From a virus, in IMG/VR virus record IMGVR_UViG_3300046734_000559, positions 1 to 25,947 of that record: a DNA stretch of 25,947 nt; one strand, 5' to 3'. The notes under the pieces were generated by a model that worked only from the letters and a program-made list of their open reading frames with translations, was not told where the DNA came from and did not search any database. Numbering within the stretch: position 1 is the first letter of the stretch; each line of letters opens with the position of its first letter. A program made the position numbers and the translations under genes. Positions 6,391 to 18,453 of this stretch are shown here, piece by piece.

Positions 6391-7560
6391 ATGTCAGAAC
6401 TATTAGAAAGTCGCTGGCAAGAGACTAAAACAGCACTTCTTGAAGGCCTAAATGGCAATAAGAAAGCAGTTATGGCGTCAACACTTGAGAATACACGCAA
6501 GTATTTGGCTGAGACTGCAGGTGCTGGAGCTACCTCTGCCGGCAATATCGCAACACTTAACCGTGTGATCCTACCAGTGATCAGACGTGTTATGCCAACA
6601 GTGATTGCAAACGAAATCGTTGGTGTTCAGCCAATGACAGGTCCAGTGGGTCAAATCCACACATTGAGAGTACGTTACTCTGATACAGCAGGCTCAGGCG
6701 CAAGCGGAGCAACAGCTGGAGAAGAAGCACTTTCACCATTCAAAATTGCTGAAGCATATTCTGGTGCAACCAGTGGTAAAGCAGCAGCAACAGCAGCTCT
6801 AGAAGGTGCAGCTGGTAATAAACTTAGCATTCAGATCTTGAAACAGACTGTTGAAGCTAAATCACGTAAGTTATCAGCACGTTGGACATTTGAAGCGGCA
6901 CAAGACGCTCAAAGCCAGCACGGTATCGATGTAGAAGCAGAAATTATGGCAGCACTTGCTCAAGAAATTACTGCAGAAATCGATCAAGAGGTCCTAGGAT
7001 CACTTGCTTCTTTAGCAGGAACAGGTACAGACACTTATAACCAAGCAGCAGTATCTGGTACAGCTACATTTGTTGGCGACGAACACGCAGCTTTAGCAGT
7101 TCTAGTTAACAGAGCAGCAAACAGAATTGCACAGAGAACACGTAGAGGCGCAGGTAACTGGGCTGTTGTTTCTCCAGCAATTTTGACTGTACTTCAGTCA
7201 GCAACAACTTCAGCGTTCGCAAGAACAACTGAAGGTACTTTTGAAGCACCAACAAATACTAAAATGGTTGGTACTTTGAACGGTGCAATGAAAATCTACG
7301 TAAACACATATGCAGCAGATGATGATGTATTAGTTGGATACAAAGGTTCTTCAGAATCAGACGCAGCAGCGTTCTACTGCCCATACATTCCGTTAATGAG
7401 TAGTGGCGTTGTACTTGACCCAACATCATTTGAGCCAGTCGTATCATTTATGACTCGTTATGGATATGTTGAGTTGTCAAACACAGCTTCGTCTCTTGGT
7501 AACGCAGCTGACTACGTAGAGAAAGTTGAAGTGAACACAGGTAACTTGAGTTTCTCATAA
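6391..7560 (+). CDS. 23: major capsid protein, T4 gp23-like
   Basis: Forms the hexamers of the head shell (HK97 fold). Conserved blocks: NRVILPVIRRVMPTVIANEI (57-76), VGVQPMTGPVGQIHTLRVRYSD (77-98), a helix around residues 163-200 starting ARWTFEAAQDAQSQHGID that is the counterpart of T4's MELAQDLRAVHGMDAD region, and RRGAGNWAVVSP. At 389 aa it is well below T4 gp23 (521), so the T4 insertion domain is probably reduced or missing. A site L39-A40-E41 followed by T42 fits the gp21 (I/L)xE cleavage rule and would release a ~41-residue N-terminal peptide; this is inference. The ribosome site AAGGAGATAACA is the strongest in the window. The gene is directly followed by a strong terminator, consistent with very high expression. 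Confidence 0.95.
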   Translation: MSELLESRWQETKTALLEGLNGNKKAVMASTLENTRKYLAETAGAGATSAGNIATLNRVILPVIRRVMPTVIANEIVGVQPMTGPVGQIHTLRVRYSDTAGSGASGATAGEEALSPFKIAEAYSGATSGKAAATAALEGAAGNKLSIQILKQTVEAKSRKLSARWTFEAAQDAQSQHGIDVEAEIMAALAQEITAEIDQEVLGSLASLAGTGTDTYNQAAVSGTATFVGDEHAALAVLVNRAANRIAQRTRRGAGNWAVVSPAILTVLQSATTSAFARTTEGTFEAPTNTKMVGTLNGAMKIYVNTYAADDDVLVGYKGSSESDAAAFYCPYIPLMSSGVVLDPTSFEPVVSFMTRYGYVELSNTASSLGNAADYVEKVEVNTGNLSFS

Positions 7561-7634: not shown

Positions 7635-7829
7635 ATGATATACAAAGGTCAGGTTTATAAGTTTACAGGTAAATGGGGTGTTGTACGTCCAGATGCATTT
7701 GGTCAAGTACGTGTTGACGTACTGTTTGATAAAAATCAACATAAACTAATTATTGGTGATCGTGTTGAATATGAACAAATTGAAAAAAATAATAGAAGAT
7801 ATGCAGAAAATATTGTAAAAATAGGTTGA
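7635..7829 (+). CDS. small OB-fold protein resembling a cold-shock domain
   Basis: A 64-aa protein with good AAGGAG spacing before ATG 7635. Its pattern GQVYKFTGKWGVVRPD (5-20), RVDVLFD (26-32), GDRVEYEQIE (41-50) and RRYAENIVKI (54-63) follows the layout of the cold-shock domain: the G-x-V-x-x-F opening, the RNP1 position (here KWGVVRPD rather than KGFGFI), the RNP2 position (here VDVLFD rather than VFVHF), then G-x-x-V-x-x and a closing A-x-N-V strand. Family members bind single-stranded RNA or DNA and melt structure. The RNP motifs are only partly kept, so an IF1/S1-like OB fold is an alternative. It stands alone between the capsid terminator and a structured RNA whose promoter overlaps its stop codon. 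A role as RNA chaperone for late transcripts or for that RNA is inference. Confidence 0.8.
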   Translation: MIYKGQVYKFTGKWGVVRPDAFGQVRVDVLFDKNQHKLIIGDRVEYEQIEKNNRRYAENIVKIG

Positions 7830-7853
7830 CTTTTATTTTGTATATGCTATATT
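7826..7853 (+). promoter_or_regulatory. sigma70-type extended -10 promoter for the ncRNA
   Basis: TTGACT (7826-7831) and TATATT (7848-7853) are each 5/6 matches to the bacterial housekeeping -35 and -10 boxes, separated by 16 bases. TGC directly before TATATT makes it an extended -10. The -35 box overlaps the stop codon of the 64-aa gene. The predicted start is near 7860. No other gene gap in the window has such a complete pair; the rest carry T4-like late boxes. Confidence 0.7.
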
Positions 7854-7859
7854 AAGTAC

Positions 7860-8103
7860 ATAACAAAGACGACGGTCCTAGTTAGATAGTGCAAGGAAGA
7901 GAGATAGCAGGTCTCAAACTTGGCTAGTAGTTGTAGTGACAGCGTATGAGCGTGGAGACACGAAGATGCGACTTTAAACGTAACTGTTTGATACTAGGCT
8001 CTTGGTGATTTAGCAGAACAGACTGCAAAGCCGGGTTGTTGGTATTCTGAAGTCCAACCTATCAACATTATAGAAAAAGGTCTACTTCGGTGGGCCTTTT
8101 TTT
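7860..8103 (+). ncRNA. structured small RNA of about 240 nt with its own promoter and terminator
   Basis: No open reading frame with a ribosome site exists here, yet the stretch can form many consistent helices. A closing helix GTTaGATAG (7881-7889) pairs with CTATCAAC (8059-8066). CTAGTA (7924-7929) pairs with TACTAG (7992-7997). CGTGGAGACACG (7951-7962) is a 4-bp hairpin with a GNRA-type GAGA loop, extended by CGTA/TGCG (7943-7946 with 7967-7970) across an internal loop. Smaller hairpins are GAGA/TCTC (7901-7915), AAAC/GTTT (7976-7989), GCAG/CTGC (8013-8026) and GTTGG/CCAAC (8038-8058). CCTAGT (7877-7882) offers a competing partner for ACTAGG (7993-7998). A strong terminator ends it. I recognise no known RNA family: there is no tRNA cloverleaf or tmRNA reading frame. 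It may be independently transcribed or derived from the 3' UTR of the 64-aa gene. Confidence 0.62.
8074..8103 (+). terminator. intrinsic terminator with C(UUCG)G loop
   Basis: AAAAAGGTCTAC (8074-8085) pairs with GTGGGCCTTTTT (8090-8101) through 12 pairs, two of them G-U, closed by the very stable C(UUCG)G tetraloop and followed by a run of T. It ends the small RNA and insulates it from the virion genes downstream. Confidence 0.92.
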
Positions 8104-8133
8104 ACGAACATTATAACCCATTTTTTCGAAAAG

Positions 8134-8141
8134 GATAAATA
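8134..8141 (+). promoter_or_regulatory. T4-like late promoter box (GATAAATA)
   Basis: GATAAATA matches the T4 late -10 TATAAATA at 7 of 8 positions and the NATAAATA form reported for cyanophages. The predicted start is near 8147, about 90 bases before the 116-aa gene and just after a strong terminator, exactly where a new promoter is needed. A 7-bp inverted repeat ATACTAT/ATAGTAT (8139-8145 with 8152-8158) spans the start region. Confidence 0.7.
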
Positions 8142-8146
8142 CTATT

Positions 8147-8235
8147 GTCAGATAGTATGCCGCAAGGCGGACTTATGCTGTACCCGCAGCGTAGCTCATA
8201 GAACGGGCATCGGACTTCTAAACAGGAGAAAACAA
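8147..8235 (+). promoter_or_regulatory. structured 5' leader with potential H-type pseudoknot
   Basis: The leader of the 116-aa gene can form CCGC-AAG-GCGG (8160-8170). It can also form a 7-bp hairpin TATGCTG/CAGCGTA (8174-8180 with 8187-8193), whose loop TACCCG exposes CCCG (8183-8186) complementary to CGGG (8204-8207), giving an H-type pseudoknot. ATGCC (8157-8161) with GGCAT (8206-8210) is a competing helix. CTTCT (8215-8219) can pair with the AGGAG ribosome site (8224-8228) over a 4-base loop. I recognise no known riboswitch consensus. The leader could stabilise the mRNA or regulate translation. Confidence 0.5.
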
Positions 8236-8586
8236 ATGGGAAGACCTATTAATAAAAGAAACTTTGGCGCTACTGGAGCCACCACACCAACAATACCAGT
8301 TAGATATCACAACGGATCATCAAGTGTAGAAGGTTACATTGTGAATCAAAAAGGTACAAACAAATTTACAGTAACAACTAACGGTTCTGATACATTCGTA
8401 TGCAGACTTGTTAATGAAGTTGCTCCAAATGCAGCAGCAGAAATGTCATTAGTTGGCTTAGCAGGCAGTCCTGTTATTCTGAAGAAACTATTCAACAGAA
8501 CAGCAGTTGATTGGGACGGTAACCGTTATACTTGGACTACTGAGGACGACTCTACCGAATCATTGTTAAGACTGACAGCCATTTAA
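8236..8586 (+). CDS. small virion-associated protein, unknown function
   Basis: A 116-aa protein with a basic, Gly/Thr-rich start (MGRPINKRNFG...) and a beta-rich body: VEGYIVNQKGTNKFTVTT (31-48), a Leu/Val stretch around 55-80, and DWDGNRYTWTTED (92-104). The G-R-P-x-N-K-x-x-F-G opening and the GYIVxQxGTxKF strand occur, as I recall, in small structural proteins that precede fibre genes in marine T4-like phages. There are no Cys-pair motifs, signal peptide or membrane segment; one Cys is present near residue 56. It is first in the virion-decoration unit after a late promoter box, with ribosome site AGGAG seven bases before ATG. A head- or tail-decoration role is inference from position. Confidence 0.85.
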   Translation: MGRPINKRNFGATGATTPTIPVRYHNGSSSVEGYIVNQKGTNKFTVTTNGSDTFVCRLVNEVAPNAAAEMSLVGLAGSPVILKKLFNRTAVDWDGNRYTWTTEDDSTESLLRLTAI

Positions 8587-9960: not shown

Positions 9961-12900
9961 ATGGATTATTTTAAGAGACAGTCGTTACATAGCAGGTTAA
10001 TAGGAGACACTAGTGTAACATTAACAGCAGATGGCGAAGTCTTAATCGAACCAAGCGGTCGCAAGGTTACGATTGACGGCGACTTAGTTGTTACAGGAAA
10101 CGCAAGCGGTTCTGAAGTTACTGACATACTTTATGTTACCCAAGACGGTAATGATTTAAATGACGGTAAAAGTTTAGGACCAGACGGAGCGAAAGCAACA
10201 ATTAAAAGTGCTGTCGCTTCATCAAGCCCGGGTACTACAATTCTTGTAGGACCAGGAGATTTCTATGAATCAAATCCAATAACTCTACCAGATTTTGTTA
10301 CTATTAGAGGTACTGGTGATTTAAGAAATACTAGAATTTTCCCAAGAAATAATACGCAAACTATTTTCTATATGGGAAATGGTTGTTACTTACACGAACT
10401 TACTATGAGAGGGTTAAGATATCCAGGATGGTGTGCTGAAATACGAGAAGGCGCACTTGTAACAACATCACCATATATACAAAACTGTACAAATATGAAT
10501 GGTCCTTGGTTGAATGACGGCACAGAATTTATTCCATTCGAAACAGTGCAGATACCAGGAATTGAACCTGGTGCTAAACCATTAATGGTTGAAGATTATC
10601 CTGCTTTACCTTCTGGCAAACAAGTTAATGACACAGGCGGCGGTGGCGGCCTATATGTTGACGGTAATCAATATGATCCTGCATCACTTGTGTTTAGTTT
10701 TGTTGCAGATGCATTTACACAAATTGCACAAGGCGGAGTTGGCTTTTGGATTGATAATTTTGGTTACACACAAATTGTTAGTTGTTTCTCAGTATTCTGT
10801 AGTGTTGGTTTTAAAACCACACGAGGCGGCTATCTATCTATTTCAAACTCTGTAAGTGACTTTGGATTAAAAGGTATTGAAGCAGACGGATTCTATCCAC
10901 AAGCATATACAACTGCCAGACCACAGCAAGATTATTTTAGTACTGTTGCAAGTGTTACAATTAATACACCTGGTGCAAATTATACTTCTGCTCCTACTGT
11001 TGTAATAGAAGGACCATCAAAAGTTGGAGGCGTAACAGCGACTGCCACTGCATCAATAGACACTACTTCAGGAAAACTAGCTGCTGTTACAATACAACAA
11101 GCAGGTAGCGGTTATACTAGTGTCCCTTTAATTTCATTTAGTGGAGGCGGAGCAACTGCTCAAGCCACAGGCACAATTAATCTTGCCTCTAATGTCACAG
11201 TAACCCTAAACAGTTTAAGAGACAAACCACAAACAGGTAGTATAATTAAATTTGAAGGTGACCCTCTTTATTATTATATTACTGGAACTAATCAAATTAA
11301 TCCACCTTTTGTTTATGATGAGGTAGTATGTAGAAGAGATTTACGTAGGATTATTGACGCTGTCACTGCTGATATTGTTTTAGGCACAAGTTATCAATCA
11401 CAAGCAGCAGCAACAAGTTACTTGAGAGCAACATCAAGTAAAGTATTATCAGATCAATTGGCACCAACTGTTTTTGGTATTGAATCGGCTAGAGACGGAA
11501 TGAAGGCCGAAACTACTAATCTAGCAATGGAAGAGCAAATTGATTATTTGTTTAACATAATTACAAGCACAATTAATGAAGGGGACAGTAGTGTACAGCC
11601 CGATAATCAAAATGATATTGCTAATACACTAAACGATCTGAATACTATCGACCCTGCAAGAATTGCTGCAAAAAATAATGTTTTAGAAAATAGAGAGTTT
11701 ATAGTAGAAGAAGTTGCAGCATATGTTAATGATCAGTTTACTGAACTAAGTTATAACCAAGCTGATTATACTAGTGATATGACAACACTTATTAATGGTA
11801 TTCAAATGTTTGCAGCGTTAGAAAGTAACCAGCAAATTATTAGACTTGCTCAAGAATACGAAGTACGCACTAGATTCAAACCAATGTTGTTGTCTAGTTT
11901 TAGATTCCTAAGCGAAAAATTTGAAGCACTAGCCGAAGTACAAGCAAGTACAATTGCATTAACAAATGTTAAAGAAGGCTTCAACCAGTTTATGAATATT
12001 ATTGATGATGGTGATAGTTCGGCAAATGTAATTGTATTTCCTGAACACGCAGGAGTTGATAGCAATAGAGCAGATGCTAAAGATCAATTACAAGCAAACA
12101 AAAACTTTTTGACAACAGAATTTACAACTTTTCTAGCAGCAGAAGCTCCAGGATTTAGTTTTGATGTGGATAATTACAAATTAGATTTTGAAAGAATAAT
12201 CGATGCTATGACCTTTGACGTCCTGTACAACGGTAATAGTAGTACAGTTTTAGAAGCTAGATATTATTTTGATAATGGTGCAGACGGAACTTTATTTTCA
12301 GATTTAACACCTAATGATAGAAATGCTATCGTACAATCATATGCACGTATGAGATTTGTAATAGGTAGAGTAGCTAGAGGTTTAGCTGTAACAGCTACAA
12401 CCGGTAATGGCGTTAGTCAAGATTTTACAAGCAACAATGCAACACAGAGTGAAGCTGATTTTCTAGATACATTATTGTTTAACATTGAAGATATGATAGA
12501 TAATGTAACACTAGATAGATTGCCTTCAACTTTAACATATCCAACATACGGGGACGAACCTGCGTTACAGGTAGATGCTGCAAATATTATTGAAGCTAGA
12601 CGTAACGGTTTTATTACTGATGCTATATCATATAATTTAGCAAATAATCCAACACTTACATACAATCAAGATAAATGTAAAAGAGATATCGGTTACTTGG
12701 TTGATGGAATTAATCGTGACATACTATTAGGTACTAATCATAATAGTATACAGGCAGCTACAGCATATAAACGTGCAAATGTTGCATATCTAAATTCAGA
12801 ACAAAAACCAGCTACAATTCTTTCATTAAAATATGCAAAAACATTAGGAATAGCAGCAGTTACAACTAATGATTTAATCAGAGACGATGTTTCAGCAAAA

Positions 12901-15900
12901 TGGGATATAATTCTTGATATTATAGAATTTGATCAATTACCTAGTGTAGGTATTGAATACCCGGATCCTGGTCCTGCAAGTAATGAACTAATTTATGGAG
13001 TTGATCAAGTTCTTGCAAATAAAGCATTTTTACAAGAAGAAACTGTACAATTTATTAACAATCAATATTTTGTATACAATAGTGCTAAGTGTGAAAGAGA
13101 TACCGGACTTATTATTGATGCAGCAGCATATGACACATTGCTTGGTACAAACTACAATGCAGTTACAGCAGGATTATCATATCAAAGAGCAAACAGTGCA
13201 TATGTTTTAAGTGATCAAAATACAGAAACAATCGGCGGTATTAATTTTGCAAAAAGTAGATCCAGTGATGCAACAACACATTCGCCCTCGCAATCAGATG
13301 TTGAAGCAGCATTTGACGAAGTAATTGATATTATACAAAACGGTGCAGTAAGCACACCGCAGGCTGCTGATCCACTTACATTTACAGATCCATCAACTGC
13401 ATCAACAGCCGAAATAAACACAAAATCTCAATTACAAAATAATAGAAATTTTATTGCTGCTGAAACAGTTGCTTACATAAATGAGAATTACGTTAATTTT
13501 ACATATGACAGTTCAAAATGTGAAAGAGATATTGGATTAATATTAGATGCAATATCAAAAGATGTTGCACTAGGAACAAACTATAATACTGTAACAGCAG
13601 GATTAGCCTACTCAAGAGCCACCGCTGCAACTAACAAAGCAGCACAAGGTTTACAAACACTCGAATCATTTAAGTTTGCACGTAAAGAAACAATCGAAAA
13701 AGGATTAAGTGATACTGGAGAAGCAAGGGCATTAGCATCGTGGAATGAAGTTATAGATATATTTGAAAATGGCGTTGTTAGTACAGATACCGCAGCCGAT
13801 GCTATAACATTTACTACTCCGGTTGGTGCAAGCCAAGATCTAGAAGATGCAAAAGATCAATTACAAGCAAATAGAGATTTTATTGCAGCTGAGATTGTTG
13901 CATATGTAAATGATAACACACCGCCGGCAGGTTATAATCAAACTAAATGCAATCGTGATGTAAAATATATTGTAGATGGTTTATCACACGATATACTTTA
14001 TGGTGGTAACTCAGCAACTAGACTAGTAGCAGCTAGTTATTTTGAAGGTGCAGTAGCACAACTTCCTGTAAACCAGCTAACACCAACTACTAATGCCTAT
14101 ACACACTTAAAAGATACTGTGATTCCAGCAATTATCACAAATACTCCACTAACACCTACAACTGGCAACACTGAAACTCAAGACACCACAAACGGTGCAG
14201 CAACCGCAACAGAAAGTGCAGCACTTGAATTATTGGTAGATATTATTATTGATCACATAAATGGCTACGATAATGTTAATCCGTTAGGTGACGAAGTATT
14301 ACCAAGTGTTACTTGGTCTACATCAGAACTGCAACAAGATTACAGCACTATTGTTGCACAGAAGTCAAGTATACAAAGTTTGACAACACAGTTTATTGCA
14401 GACACTTTTACTGGATTCAACTTTAATAGCACAAAATGCGATAGAGATACAAAGTATATTGTTGATGCATTAACATATGATATATTATACGGTGGCAATA
14501 GTGCTACGCTTAATGCTGCACGTAGCTATTGGGTAGGTACACAAACACAAGTTGAAGGACAAAAAGCAGAAACTGCAACAGCGTTAGAATATACAGCAAC
14601 TATATTAAATAAAATTATACAAGATCAAGCAGTTGATTATACTTGGCAATCAAGTGAAGCACAAGATACAACTGCTGGTGCAGGAACTACAACAGAAGCA
14701 GCAACCGCAGCTAACTTGTTGCAAATTATACAAGATGTTATAACTGACGGTCTAGATAATTTGCCTACAGAAGTCAAGCCAGATTATGCAACATTTGCAA
14801 ATGCAGATGTGATTGCTGGAGTTAATAATTTATTAACAGAAAAAGATACTATTGTAGCAGATACAATTACCTATATTAACACAACTTATAATGGATTTAG
14901 CTATGATCAAGAAGTATGTAAAAGAGACACAGGCTATATTATTGATGCTATTGTACACGATGCTTTCTACGAAGCAAACATTAGCACACTAATAGCAACT
15001 CGTGCATACTTCCTAGGTAGTACACAATACTTGCCAAATGAACAAGTTGCTCCTACAGTAGCAGCATACAACCATTTACAAAGTGTAATTGATGATACTA
15101 TTCAAGGTGTAGCAGTTATTCCACAGTCAGGAAATAGTCTATCACAAGTATTGAGCGGCAATTACGGAAATGCAGCAGTAGGAACAACATTTACAAATTT
15201 GATTGGTATATTAAAAACAGCAATAACTAATCAAACTTTAATTGGAACACCGGCTGAAATTGAACCTAATTATACCTGGATTAACCAAGCAACTAGAGAC
15301 GCAGCAGAATCATTTTTTGTACAAAAATCGTATTATGAAACAGAAACAATCAAATACATTGAACAAAATATTTTAGGATTCTCATATAATATTGATAAGT
15401 GTAAAAGAGATACAGGTTATATTATTGATGCAGCAATATACGATATGATGTATGGTGGTGATAAACAATCTCGTCGAGCAGCATTAGCATATTATAATGG
15501 TGCGATACTTACTGGTATAACAGGCGATTATGGAGATCAAACGGGTATCACAGCATATGCAAATAAGTATCTTGCTTCAATTGTAAACAAAGTTTCAAAA
15601 AATGAAACAGTTACAAAAAGTTTTGGTAACCCAGCAACACAACTACTAACCATACCAGATGGAAGTACATTATTAGAAACTGGTGAACTTCCTGGAGCCG
15701 AACTAGAATTATTAATTGCTAGGGTTGCTGATGCAATTGAAGCAAAAACAATGGGCGATTGGTTTGAAAGAGAGCACAATTTAACATTAGGTAATTCAAT
15801 ATTTTTACAAGAACGAAATGCAATACTTGATGCTGAAGACGATATTGTTGATAATGCCATTAGTTCATTAAACTTAGTATACGGTGGTATTTTTGATATC

Positions 15901-18453
15901 AACGTATTCCCTGGTGTTATTAGTGTAACCACAGATAAACTTGCAGATTTAAATAATGTTAGTACTGTTAGTACAAGTGGACACGCATTTGAGTATGTCG
16001 GTGCTGGTATAACCTACAATGCACTTCCATTCTTTGGCGGTACAGCAATACCTGAAACTGAGATTGTAGAATCAAATCAAGGTAAAATATTTGCTGGTGG
16101 TACAGTTGACCAAATTGGTAACTTTAGAGTTGGTAACTTCTTTGCTGTTAATGCACTTACAGGTGGTATCAGCTTAAATGCTAATGAAATTGACCTAGAA
16201 GGTTTGACAAGTGTTGGTCCGTTTATTAGAAACGGTATTCCAGTTGGTGTTGAATTAAAAGAGGTTAGTGACAACGAAGCATTGTTATCAAGTTTAGGCA
16301 CACAAGATTTCCAAACAGCACCTACACAAAGAGCTGTTTCAAATTATGTTGAAGCAAGATACTTGAACAAAACAACAGGCGGTGATATTGTTGGCGATGT
16401 AAGTATGACAGGAGACTTAGCAGTCAACGGTGATGCAATTACAAGTACAAATACAAGTTTTGAATTCCTTAATACAGGTGTACAAAGCATAGATATGTTA
16501 GCTGCGGCAACCACTATTAATATTGGTGCTGCAACAGGTACTGTTACAATTAATCCAGATGTTACAATAGAAGGTGTTCTAACTGTTAACGGAAACTTAG
16601 TATTTGACGGTGATGTTAATATTAGTATACCAGATGAAACATTACAAGCATATAGTATTACTGAAGGCACTGAAGATTATATAAGCATCAATACTAGAGA
16701 AGGTGAAGAAGCAATTACATTTGGTGAGCAGCCAAGTGTTATTATTGCCAACCAAACAATATCAACAAGCAAAGACACTGGTGCATTAGTTGTAGACGGC
16801 GGTGTTGGTGTTGAAGGCAGTGTGTTTATAAACACTGATTTAACTGTTACTGCAAACGCAAACCTAGGTGCAGATAGAACTACATCCGAACATACTGTTT
16901 CAGGTAAAATAGATATCGATATTCCAGATGATAGTATTAATAATTTTAGAATACACGAAAACATCAGTGAATATGTAAACATCTATACTACAGATGGTGA
17001 TGAACAAATTCTTTTAGGTAGTACACCTAAATTAATTATTCTAAACAACACAAACGCTACAGATAACACAACTGGTGCTGTACAAGTCACTGGTGGTATA
17101 AGTGCTCAACAAAATATACATTCGGGTATTGACGTTGTAGCAGATCGTGATTTGATTGCTGATAGAAATGCTAAAATTAACGGTAGTAATATCACAACCG
17201 ATTCTACCTCATTTGATGTAATAAACACAGTAGCAACAACTGTAAATGCGTTTGGTGATGCTACTACACTTAACATAGGTGGTGCTACTGGCACAATGAC
17301 AATTGGCAATGAAGTTGTTATTATAGATAGTGTAGCAGGTTTACAGATTCCGGTAGGTACTACTTCCGATCGTCCAACTAATGTTACAGGTAGAATCAGA
17401 TTTAACACTAGTTTAAATGCATTTGAAGGTTATGATGGTATAGCTTGGAATACTTTAGGCGGAGTAATTGATGTAGATCAAGATACGAAAATTGTTGCCG
17501 AAGATAATCCTGGTGCAGACAATGACGAACTAGACTTCTTTACTGGAGGTGTACTTAGAGCTACATTGAGCAGTACATCTTTTGATATTGCAGCAACAAA
17601 CACTTTAAGTATCGCAAATGTTACAGAAAGCGAATCAACAACAACAGGTGCATTAACAGTAGCAGGTGGTGTAGGCATTAGTAAAAACTTGCACGTAAAT
17701 GGATACATTAACGGCAACACAAATGGTATACTAACAATTGGTAACTTAGGTAGTGATAAAATCATTATCAAAGGCGAAACAATCGAAACACCTGATACTA
17801 TAAAACTTATTGCTAATGCTCCTGACAGTGCAGCTGACGACATTGTATATCCGATGACATTTGCACATCATACAATAAGTGGTGCTATTGTTGCAGGGTC
17901 TGGTACAGGTATTAAGTTTGAATTAGAAACAACAAATGACAATTTTGAAATCGGCGGCCAAATTGAAATAGTATCTCAAGACATTACAGGGTCACAAGAA
18001 GACTTTGATATGGTGTTTAGAACAATGGATGCTGGTAGTACAGGTGTAGAAAAACTACGTTTGAGTGAAACTACAAGTACATTTAGTACAAACGTTCAAG
18101 TTGATCAAAACTTATTTGTAACTGGTATACTTGATGCAGCAGGATTTAGAGGTAGTATATTTGCAGATGATAGTACCGAAATGCTTGATGCAATTAACAA
18201 CAAAATTACTGTAACTGATATAGCTGCTGGTACACTTTCACTTACTACTGATTTAGAAGTTATACACGGTGGTACAGGCGTAAGTACACTTACCGAAGAT
18301 GGTATTATGTATGGTGCAGGAACAGGAACAGTGCAAGTTACAGCAGCAGCTGGTACAGCAGATGCTTCAGAAACATTCCAAGTACTTACTGTAACAAGCG
18401 ATTCAGATGCGACTCCAATTTGGTCTGACACTATAGATGGTGGTAGCTTCTAA
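9961..18453 (+). CDS. giant modular tail-fibre or appendage protein (2830 aa)
   Basis: Domains in order. Residues 1-50: beta module (VTIDGDLVVTGNASGSE). About 55-320: right-handed beta-helix, pectate-lyase-like (YVTQDGNDLNDG, TTILVGPGDFYE, FVTIRGTGDL, SPYIQNC, QIVSCFSVFC). About 325-420: two Gly-rich beta repeats of the SGYTSVPxISFSGGG type. About 457-1970: ten tandem helical repeats, each starting with a CxRDxxxIIDA box. About 2010-2120: a block with YNALPFFGG, DQIGNFRVGNFFAVN and TQRAVSNYVE. About 2140-2500: repeats of the TTINIGAATGTVTI type, then RIRFNTSLNAFEGYDGIAWN. Near the end: GSIFADDSTEMLDAINN and GGTGVSTLTEDGIMYG, a common fibre motif. Probably a trimeric, host-contacting or baseplate-linked fibre; an enzymatic role for the beta-helix is not shown. 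No signal peptide. It ends in tandem TAA TAA. Confidence 0.9.
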   Translation: MDYFKRQSLHSRLIGDTSVTLTADGEVLIEPSGRKVTIDGDLVVTGNASGSEVTDILYVTQDGNDLNDGKSLGPDGAKATIKSAVASSSPGTTILVGPGDFYESNPITLPDFVTIRGTGDLRNTRIFPRNNTQTIFYMGNGCYLHELTMRGLRYPGWCAEIREGALVTTSPYIQNCTNMNGPWLNDGTEFIPFETVQIPGIEPGAKPLMVEDYPALPSGKQVNDTGGGGGLYVDGNQYDPASLVFSFVADAFTQIAQGGVGFWIDNFGYTQIVSCFSVFCSVGFKTTRGGYLSISNSVSDFGLKGIEADGFYPQAYTTARPQQDYFSTVASVTINTPGANYTSAPTVVIEGPSKVGGVTATATASIDTTSGKLAAVTIQQAGSGYTSVPLISFSGGGATAQATGTINLASNVTVTLNSLRDKPQTGSIIKFEGDPLYYYITGTNQINPPFVYDEVVCRRDLRRIIDAVTADIVLGTSYQSQAAATSYLRATSSKVLSDQLAPTVFGIESARDGMKAETTNLAMEEQIDYLFNIITSTINEGDSSVQPDNQNDIANTLNDLNTIDPARIAAKNNVLENREFIVEEVAAYVNDQFTELSYNQADYTSDMTTLINGIQMFAALESNQQIIRLAQEYEVRTRFKPMLLSSFRFLSEKFEALAEVQASTIALTNVKEGFNQFMNIIDDGDSSANVIVFPEHAGVDSNRADAKDQLQANKNFLTTEFTTFLAAEAPGFSFDVDNYKLDFERIIDAMTFDVLYNGNSSTVLEARYYFDNGADGTLFSDLTPNDRNAIVQSYARMRFVIGRVARGLAVTATTGNGVSQDFTSNNATQSEADFLDTLLFNIEDMIDNVTLDRLPSTLTYPTYGDEPALQVDAANIIEARRNGFITDAISYNLANNPTLTYNQDKCKRDIGYLVDGINRDILLGTNHNSIQAATAYKRANVAYLNSEQKPATILSLKYAKTLGIAAVTTNDLIRDDVSAKWDIILDIIEFDQLPSVGIEYPDPGPASNELIYGVDQVLANKAFLQEETVQFINNQYFVYNSAKCERDTGLIIDAAAYDTLLGTNYNAVTAGLSYQRANSAYVLSDQNTETIGGINFAKSRSSDATTHSPSQSDVEAAFDEVIDIIQNGAVSTPQAADPLTFTDPSTASTAEINTKSQLQNNRNFIAAETVAYINENYVNFTYDSSKCERDIGLILDAISKDVALGTNYNTVTAGLAYSRATAATNKAAQGLQTLESFKFARKETIEKGLSDTGEARALASWNEVIDIFENGVVSTDTAADAITFTTPVGASQDLEDAKDQLQANRDFIAAEIVAYVNDNTPPAGYNQTKCNRDVKYIVDGLSHDILYGGNSATRLVAASYFEGAVAQLPVNQLTPTTNAYTHLKDTVIPAIITNTPLTPTTGNTETQDTTNGAATATESAALELLVDIIIDHINGYDNVNPLGDEVLPSVTWSTSELQQDYSTIVAQKSSIQSLTTQFIADTFTGFNFNSTKCDRDTKYIVDALTYDILYGGNSATLNAARSYWVGTQTQVEGQKAETATALEYTATILNKIIQDQAVDYTWQSSEAQDTTAGAGTTTEAATAANLLQIIQDVITDGLDNLPTEVKPDYATFANADVIAGVNNLLTEKDTIVADTITYINTTYNGFSYDQEVCKRDTGYIIDAIVHDAFYEANISTLIATRAYFLGSTQYLPNEQVAPTVAAYNHLQSVIDDTIQGVAVIPQSGNSLSQVLSGNYGNAAVGTTFTNLIGILKTAITNQTLIGTPAEIEPNYTWINQATRDAAESFFVQKSYYETETIKYIEQNILGFSYNIDKCKRDTGYIIDAAIYDMMYGGDKQSRRAALAYYNGAILTGITGDYGDQTGITAYANKYLASIVNKVSKNETVTKSFGNPATQLLTIPDGSTLLETGELPGAELELLIARVADAIEAKTMGDWFEREHNLTLGNSIFLQERNAILDAEDDIVDNAISSLNLVYGGIFDINVFPGVISVTTDKLADLNNVSTVSTSGHAFEYVGAGITYNALPFFGGTAIPETEIVESNQGKIFAGGTVDQIGNFRVGNFFAVNALTGGISLNANEIDLEGLTSVGPFIRNGIPVGVELKEVSDNEALLSSLGTQDFQTAPTQRAVSNYVEARYLNKTTGGDIVGDVSMTGDLAVNGDAITSTNTSFEFLNTGVQSIDMLAAATTINIGAATGTVTINPDVTIEGVLTVNGNLVFDGDVNISIPDETLQAYSITEGTEDYISINTREGEEAITFGEQPSVIIANQTISTSKDTGALVVDGGVGVEGSVFINTDLTVTANANLGADRTTSEHTVSGKIDIDIPDDSINNFRIHENISEYVNIYTTDGDEQILLGSTPKLIILNNTNATDNTTGAVQVTGGISAQQNIHSGIDVVADRDLIADRNAKINGSNITTDSTSFDVINTVATTVNAFGDATTLNIGGATGTMTIGNEVVIIDSVAGLQIPVGTTSDRPTNVTGRIRFNTSLNAFEGYDGIAWNTLGGVIDVDQDTKIVAEDNPGADNDELDFFTGGVLRATLSSTSFDIAATNTLSIANVTESESTTTGALTVAGGVGISKNLHVNGYINGNTNGILTIGNLGSDKIIIKGETIETPDTIKLIANAPDSAADDIVYPMTFAHHTISGAIVAGSGTGIKFELETTNDNFEIGGQIEIVSQDITGSQEDFDMVFRTMDAGSTGVEKLRLSETTSTFSTNVQVDQNLFVTGILDAAGFRGSIFADDSTEMLDAINNKITVTDIAAGTLSLTTDLEVIHGGTGVSTLTEDGIMYGAGTGTVQVTAAAGTADASETFQVLTVTSDSDATPIWSDTIDGGSF
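11329..15882 (+). repeat. ten tandem CxRD repeats (~140-165 aa each) inside the giant gene
   Basis: The box C-x-R-D-x-x-x-(I/L)-(I/V)-D-(A/G)-x-x-x-D recurs at residues 457, 906, 1044, 1187, 1330, 1493, 1653 and 1814. Two degenerate copies with Tyr in place of Cys lie at 603 and 739. Spacings are 146, 136, 167, 138, 143, 143, 163, 160 and 161 residues. Each unit continues with a G(T/G)N..(S/A/T)...A...Y segment, a long helix, and a closing LQxNRxF(I)...E...Y(I/V)N segment. Some DNA identity persists between units; for example AAAGATCAATTACAAGCAAA occurs at 12079-12098 and 13852-13871, suggesting growth by duplication. Confidence 0.88.

Follow-up and report, generated by a model that had tools for sequence, protein, structure and literature searches.

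The closest described relative of the RNA considered here is the manA motif (RF01745), to which Rfam assigns the type "Cis-reg". The accessible part of its description by Weinberg et al. (2010; PMC2864571) rates a cis-regulatory role of manA as certain and a switch as probable, judging by its location in potential 5' UTRs. It is a long-standing riboswitch candidate, with no ligand named in the accessible parts of the mainly open-access literature surveyed. No claim of a stand-alone manA RNA gene was found in the same parts of this literature (PMC2864571, PMC9964418, PMC7657543, PMC7779021, PMC10043782, PMC9004378, PMC7029224, PMC3037559, PMC3692125, PMC3023696, PMC5082946, and PMC3014915). The nearest is PMC10832533, which in the portion available describes a manA motif near tRNA and tmRNA genes on a Bifidobacterium megaplasmid, one of two non-coding RNAs found with the transcriptome, and still terms it cis-regulatory.

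The window analyzed here is a stretch of 25,947 bases, positions 1 to 25,947 of IMG/VR virus record IMGVR_UViG_3300046734_000559. It carries a gp23 major capsid protein gene whose 30 best named relatives listed are from jumbo phages (63.9–69.9% identical), including Vibrio phage 2.275, PA5oct, and GAP32. The order 3' of gp23 is a terminator hairpin, a 64-aa ORF (7635–7829), a promoter (7826–7853), the RNA, and a terminator reaching to 8103. The features of this part of the window are:

6391..7560, + strand: gp23 major capsid protein gene, matching phrog_138 (major head protein)
7826..7831, + strand: −35 element TTGACT, overlapping the stop codon of the 64-aa ORF 7635–7829
7845..7853, + strand: extended −10 element TGC-TATATT (TATATT at 7848–7853), sigma70-type, after a spacer of 16 nt
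7860..8103, + strand: predicted transcript of ~244 nt, its start inferred from the −10 element and its end from the terminator
8075..8103, + strand: intrinsic terminator (GGTCTAC 8079–8085, TTCG loop 8086–8089, GTGGGCC 8090–8096, T run 8097–8103)
8134..8141, + strand: late-type promoter box GATAAATA, read from the sequence, at the start of the next unit and outside the RNA
8156..8238, + strand: freshwater-2 leader (RF02980), 68.1 bits against a gathering score of 49.9

In the close relatives compared, the late-type box is kept 3' of the terminator as NATAAATA. The freshwater-2 leader ends at the start codon of ORF 8236–8586, which is without a PHROG match; the leader exceeds its gathering score in 24 of the 26 records carrying the RNA. 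It resembles the RNA considered here in being the next structured RNA of the same intergenic region, but is a separate element behind a late promoter, and the two are not homologous as far as tested with their separate models. Farther downstream there is a 2830-aa ORF at 9961–18453, followed by no long closed + strand ORF up to the record end (25947); this region is perhaps a second giant ORF running off the record.

The initial annotation had described the capsid region as containing a free-standing structured RNA with a host-type promoter of the form TTGACT/16/TGC-TATATT and a C(UUCG)G terminator, in a stretch without a reading frame. Promoter and terminator are indeed present at 7826–7853 and up to 8103, and there is no ORF of at least 60 aa between 7830 and 8235. 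The evidence it drew on, a promoter match and mutually compatible helices, does not rise above chance in the window alone; it is across relatives that it finds support. In 3 kb there are 7 promoter-like sites vs. 7.4 ± 2.6 in shuffles, and the same scan listed 0 terminators vs. 2.4 in shuffles, missing the one at 8075–8103. The fold energy of the window RNA is −68.9 vs. −60.9 ± 4.8 (z −1.67), with 13 of 200 shuffles equal or better. Single-sequence statistics of this kind are compatible with chance, that is, with an intergenic stretch holding a fortuitous promoter, hairpins, and terminator. Across relatives, promoter, terminator, and helices are all conserved far beyond the controls.

With cmscan under permissive settings, the window aligns to the whole of manA (positions 1–192 of 192) at 29.7 bits (E 6e-06 for 451 bases). 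This is below the manA gathering score of 55.2, and by the Rfam rule the RNA is not a member. All 25 of the close relatives likewise gave full-length manA alignments at 29.7–47.0 bits, under 55.2 in every case. Of classical manA records searched alongside, 24 of 25 scored 168–196 bits, the miss (L086) being cut by a contig end. The manA 3' hairpin pattern occurs in at least 120 stretches of IMG/VR, with 102 classical and 18 window-type copies among the matches listed, and a search of viral sequence with the window-type pattern gave 25 contigs. Among the matches listed for the 16-base ATAGTGCAAGGAAGAG of the window RNA is a third kind, "type A", which is larger and whose outer helix is AAGC/GCTT. 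Of 36 records found by this 5' 16-mer, the manA model matches 26, nine of them above the gathering score (the set also included L086). From 140 listed 16-mer matches (viral loci plus the window's own), 23 were omitted as cut or without the 3' pattern. Five of those omitted (L213, L231, L233, L271, and L283) appear to be genuine RNAs whose 3' ends differ, and three (L222, L276, and L292) share one coding-looking sequence.

A model (R1) was built from 35 new-type sequences, with no classical manA included. It matches all 100 classical manA loci searched (E ≤ 0.1), which were taken from the 102 found and, having been picked by their 3' hairpin, are not a blind sample; contig ends truncate 17 of the 100, and the two weakest of these matches have E values of 0.011 and 0.023. 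Judged by these alignments, the window RNA is a diverged, free-standing branch of manA lying below its gathering score, and the earlier statement that it could be matched to no known family does not stand. It shares with RF01745 a full-length alignment, the same helices, the conserved 3' hairpin, and an occurrence in marine phages. It differs from classical manA in its low score, in having its own terminator, and in having no gene directly behind it. The published description of manA is as a cis-regulatory element, whereas the window RNA is not in a potential 5' UTR: a terminator, a late box, and another leader intervene.

Searches beyond these sets gave little. BLAST of the window region and that of a relative (L132) against phage records gave short local matches covering at most 13% of the query in the rows listed; some of those of L132 reach E 6e-5 but fall at query bases 40–97, on the promoter side, and were taken as chance or A+T-rich similarity. 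The window-type 3' end was found in 0 stretches of bacterial and archaeal genomes. The 5' 16-mer occurs there in 52 stretches in 257 billion bases vs. an estimated ~120 expected by chance, none with the other landmarks. No R1 or manA match was found in HTVC008M, Melnitz, Vibrio 2.275, PA5oct, GAP32, Syn33, Sf-FS3, or S-CAM8, using stricter filters that lose weak matches. The manA RNA of S-CREM1 gave no match to plasmids; among other phages, it is matched weakly and over part of its length by 45 records of the Synechococcus phage ACG-2014f type (E ~1e-3 in the rows listed).

The manA-type domain and its predicted helices in the window are as follows:

7850-8074, + strand: model R1 match, 118.5 bits, the window being one of R1's 35 training sequences
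7865..8068, + strand: manA-type RNA domain, aligned to RF01745 positions 1–192 at 29.7 bits
7862..7883, + strand: 5' hairpin (P1) with GACGACGG loop, its stem weak in the window and stronger in relatives
7885..7889, + strand: 5' strand of the closing helix (GATAG), pairing with 8059–8063
7892..7895, + strand: CAAG, pairing with CTTG 7919–7922 and enclosing helix 7901–7905/7911–7915
7924..7997, + strand: middle arm, closed by CTAGT 7924–7928/ACTAG 7993–7997 and containing a GNRA hairpin at 7951–7962
8001..8035, + strand: arm closed by CTTGG 8001–8005/CCGGG 8031–8035
8038..8058, + strand: 3' hairpin GTTGG/CCAAC, the most conserved part, abutting the closing helix
8059..8063, + strand: 3' strand of the closing helix (CTATC), pairing with 7885–7889

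The GNRA hairpin proposed in the initial annotation recurs here as CGTG-GAGA-CACG (7951–7962). The closing helix that it placed at 7881–7889/8059–8066 is retained in its core, G7885 and ATAG (7886–7889) with CTAT (8059–8062) and C8063; its GTT/AAC extension (7881–7883/8064–8066) is not kept in the relatives viewed (e.g., loci L101 and L132), where 7881–7883 instead closes a 5' hairpin. An anti-Shine-Dalgarno role for the P3a loop was considered by eye and dropped, the feature not being conserved.

Covariation was assessed in an alignment of 35 new-type representatives (<90% identity) not fitted to any model. RNAalifold, with no structure supplied, gave 30 pairs, 17 of them with two-sided changes that keep the pair. 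With a manA-guided structure of 55 pairs, 90.0% of cells are paired vs. 71.0% in shuffles, and a sliding control gave 34.6–53.3% when out of register. Two-sided changes occur in 41 of the 55 pairs and 356 cells, vs. 30.9 pairs and 115.6 cells in shuffles, a level reached by 0 of 500. The prospect raised at the outset, that related phages would show neither conservation nor covariation, thus did not materialize. In a joint alignment of new types and classical manA (A2; 89 distinct of 90), two-sided changes are seen in all 12 helices and 52 of 55 pairs, this alignment being fitted to R1 and hence biased towards it; its input was 93 sources, of which 90 matched R1 at E 0.001, the unmatched ones being P-RSM1, S-CREM1, and P-SSM7. 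The closing helix is constant within the new types (AU/UA), and is GC/GC in classical manA. With this covariation, and with promoter and terminator at fixed places in many divergent phages, the probability left to a chance assembly is negligible.

Promoters were sought with simple sigma70-like consensus scans on mostly incomplete contigs. Of 93 distinct new-type upstream regions, 85 have at least 10 of the 12 consensus bases (shuffles 5.8%), and 90 at least nine. The 3' end of the −10 element falls from −4 to +6 relative to position 1 of the model, with a TTGAC[ACT]-like −35 element in a fixed place. Classical manA resembles the window RNA in this respect, with at least 10 of 12 promoter bases at its start in 51 of 63 upstream regions (shuffles 4.0%), again in a fixed place. 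Counts of promoters, terminators, and context leave out 28 of the 100 classical loci (17 cut by contig ends and 11 full-length). Such a promoter precedes 11 of 12 isolate copies, the exception being S-CREM1. In eight of the 12 (L387, L388, L390, L391, L393, L394, L384, and L167), the −35 TTGACA appears by eye to lie in the terminator loop of the preceding gene (GAGGGTG-CTTGACA-CCCTC-TTTTT), so that terminator and promoter are fused and the T run serves as promoter spacer.

Terminators were sought by an equally simple scan reaching 110 nt from the RNA. Among the distinct new-type RNAs 59 of 95 have one, as do 6 of the 64 classical RNAs; the control, random windows drawn from these loci, gave 43 of 1040. 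In 30 of the 95 there is a TATAAATA-type box no more than 160 nt away, often at the RNA 3' end. The lack of a terminator and a start codon no more than 80 nt away are combined in 31 of the 64 classical RNAs and in 23 of the 95 of new type. This placement directly before genes, like the rating of Weinberg et al. in the part available, would suit a cis-acting riboswitch or attenuator, in which a metabolite or protein sensed by the manA fold sets terminator read-through or ribosome start downstream. Against this, the window RNA and 59 of the 95 new-type ones end in a terminator, whose stem varies among close relatives while the RNA core stays. The 5' arm of the terminator pairs no better with its own core (−8.60 kcal/mol) than with swapped ones (−8.44 ± 0.16), in a simple test of 54 terminators limited to this arm. 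In the window, moreover, the next gene is served by a late promoter and a different leader. Taken with the copy numbers and neighbors given below, a switch for the adjoining gene appears unlikely.

Antitermination has also to be considered. The put sites of phage HK022 are an example of an RNA that acts in this way, and by analogy the nascent manA-type RNA might make its own polymerase read through the terminator behind it. The fixed place directly after a host-type promoter would be in keeping with this, but terminators at a conserved position directly behind the RNA would have little point if they were always read through, and such a role is judged very improbable.

The RNA is present in one copy in each record that has it. 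Of 36 larger records searched, 28 match, with a single copy in each, and BLAST places it at a single site in every one of 39 annotated phage records (GenBank/RefSeq twins included); a 12.9-bit R1 match in L060 and a second one of 12.7 bits in L143 were treated as chance. Among new-type loci, a gp23 relative is found in 88 of 136, upstream and on the same strand in all 88, at a median distance of 354 nt. This share is inflated, since 24 of the 136 loci were contributed by the window's own record or by the gp23 scan, and some contigs are represented twice; when restricted to the 89 full-length loci that the 16-mer scan gave, the count is 43. gp23 is also upstream in 7 of 72 classical manA loci, and precedes the manA RNA in P-HM1 and P-RSM4, as in the window. 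Conversely, among 50 gp23 loci that are followed by 1700 nt or more of sequence, the RNA is present in 18 and missing from 32, so it is a dispensable, optional cassette. The manA model found no convincing RNA in the 32 records without an R1 match (one match of 11.9 bits). In L053, for example, gp23 is followed by a terminator, a small ORF, and what looks by eye like a freshwater-2 leader, and the RNA is missing.

Neighbors vary widely. In P-SSM2, regA is before the RNA and purL after it; pstS is before it in P-SSM4 and ferredoxin in P-SSM7. gp32 follows it in P-HM2, and in P-TIM68 and P-TIM40 the next gene on its strand is talC. In the cultured SAR11 phage Mosig, where the RNA occupies 108158–108382 of the record, rubrerythrin follows it. 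In metagenomic loci, the genes after it include gp32, peroxiredoxin, a mannose-6-phosphate isomerase domain, phosphomannomutase, transaldolase, Hsp20, and ThyX. The S-CREM1 copy is flush between tRNA-Leu and tRNA-Asn. In a tree of the RNA (midpoint root, with context labels set by the authors), 15 sequences from T4-like contexts lie inside those from jumbo-phage contexts, with support of 0.97–0.99; this nesting suggests exchange of the RNA between phage lineages. The single copy per record, with downstream genes unrelated or absent, argues further against a riboswitch.

The same neighborhoods bear on a structural role, in which the fold protects or insulates transcripts as a 5' element and the terminated versions are by-products, or decoys for a nuclease or protein. 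The RNA does stand at the very start of strong-promoter transcripts, in leader and free-standing forms alike, and the downstream genes are functionally unrelated. A general leader would, however, be expected more than once per genome, and a terminated transcript has nothing to protect; this explanation is considered improbable, more so than a riboswitch.

Several other features were seen near these RNAs. Small hypothetical genes are annotated over the manA RNA as PHM1_121 (P-HM1, L387), PSSM4_169.1 (P-SSM4, L389), and PHM2_011 and PHM2_012 (P-HM2, L392), and are probably not genes. Of 12 viral loci scanned, 4 have glutamine riboswitch aptamers (glnA, RF01739), all above the gathering score, some hundreds of bases 5' of their manA-type RNA (L210 2812–2861, L219 1573–1622, L289 230–279, and L308 2909–2956); these are likewise structured RNAs of the gp23 neighborhood, but of another fold and family, with an aptamer of validated type. 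The contig of L240, which also has a manA-type RNA, encodes a two-piece (alphaproteobacterial, permuted) tmRNA at 2105–2378 (− strand). A phage tmRNA of the two-piece permuted kind is in print for Melnitz, according to the accessible part of PMC9004378.

The order of arms in manA-type RNAs, by eye, recalls that of a tRNA with a long variable arm: a closing helix, 2 nt, a 4-bp arm, 1 nt, a middle arm, a variable arm, and then a 5-bp hairpin abutting the closing helix. Unlike tRNA, they have an 11–12-nt loop in place of the 7-nt T loop, no CCA end, and an extra 5' hairpin. No tRNA or tmRNA model matched 7800–8250 up to E 10, ARAGORN found 0 genes in the window, and no 6S family was among the 11 Rfam matches up to E 10 in the same region. 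RNAs C and D of T4 are further stable RNAs of phage tRNA arrays with which a comparison may be drawn. There were no tRNA genes beside classical manA in 60 loci, so the S-CREM1 array is not typical. A weak link between tRNA and manA models and a frequent position of manA beside tRNAs are described in the available part of PMC3692125. That the arm order lets the RNA engage the host tRNA or ribosome machinery is a long shot.

The explanation preferred here is that the window holds an autonomous manA-type gene for a non-coding RNA (probability roughly 0.7), which fits better than the Rfam "Cis-reg" label on the sequence comparisons above. It reads as a gene for a finished RNA because of its promoter, its frequent terminator, its single copy, and a deep fold kept while the neighbors change. 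In this much the initial reading of a free-standing structured RNA with a sigma70-type promoter and its own terminator in the capsid region is borne out by conservation in relatives. Host-type RNA polymerase would start near 7860 and stop near 8103, giving an RNA of ~244 nt with the manA fold, while the late promoter at 8134 would serve the next gene separately. The polymerase would be the unmodified host enzyme, probably acting early in infection, and the finished RNA would have a host or phage macromolecule as its target in trans, rather than switching the gene next to it. The RNA-handling or translation machinery is the first candidate partner, because of the arm order and the place between two tRNA genes in one phage. 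The S-CREM1 copy, without a promoter of its own, counts against an autonomous gene, as does the absence of the RNA from 32 of the 50 gp23 loci, and RNAs directly before genes with no terminator (e.g., before rubrerythrin in Mosig) may act in cis.

Whether the whole manA family could be such an autonomous, single-copy, trans-acting phage RNA gene, started by host sigma70 or cut from a tRNA array and passed between lineages, is evenly balanced; the carriers would be phages of Prochlorococcus, Synechococcus, and SAR11, relatives of marine jumbo phages, and perhaps mobile elements of other kinds. An RNA-seq study of P-HM2 infection, with reads counted for intergenic regions too, has been published (available part of PMC5082946), and cultured carriers include the SAR11 phage Mosig and several Prochlorococcus phages. 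If manA is an independent RNA gene, the search for its metabolite has been misdirected, and an RNA tool widespread among viruses that infect the most abundant bacteria of the ocean would become accessible to direct test.
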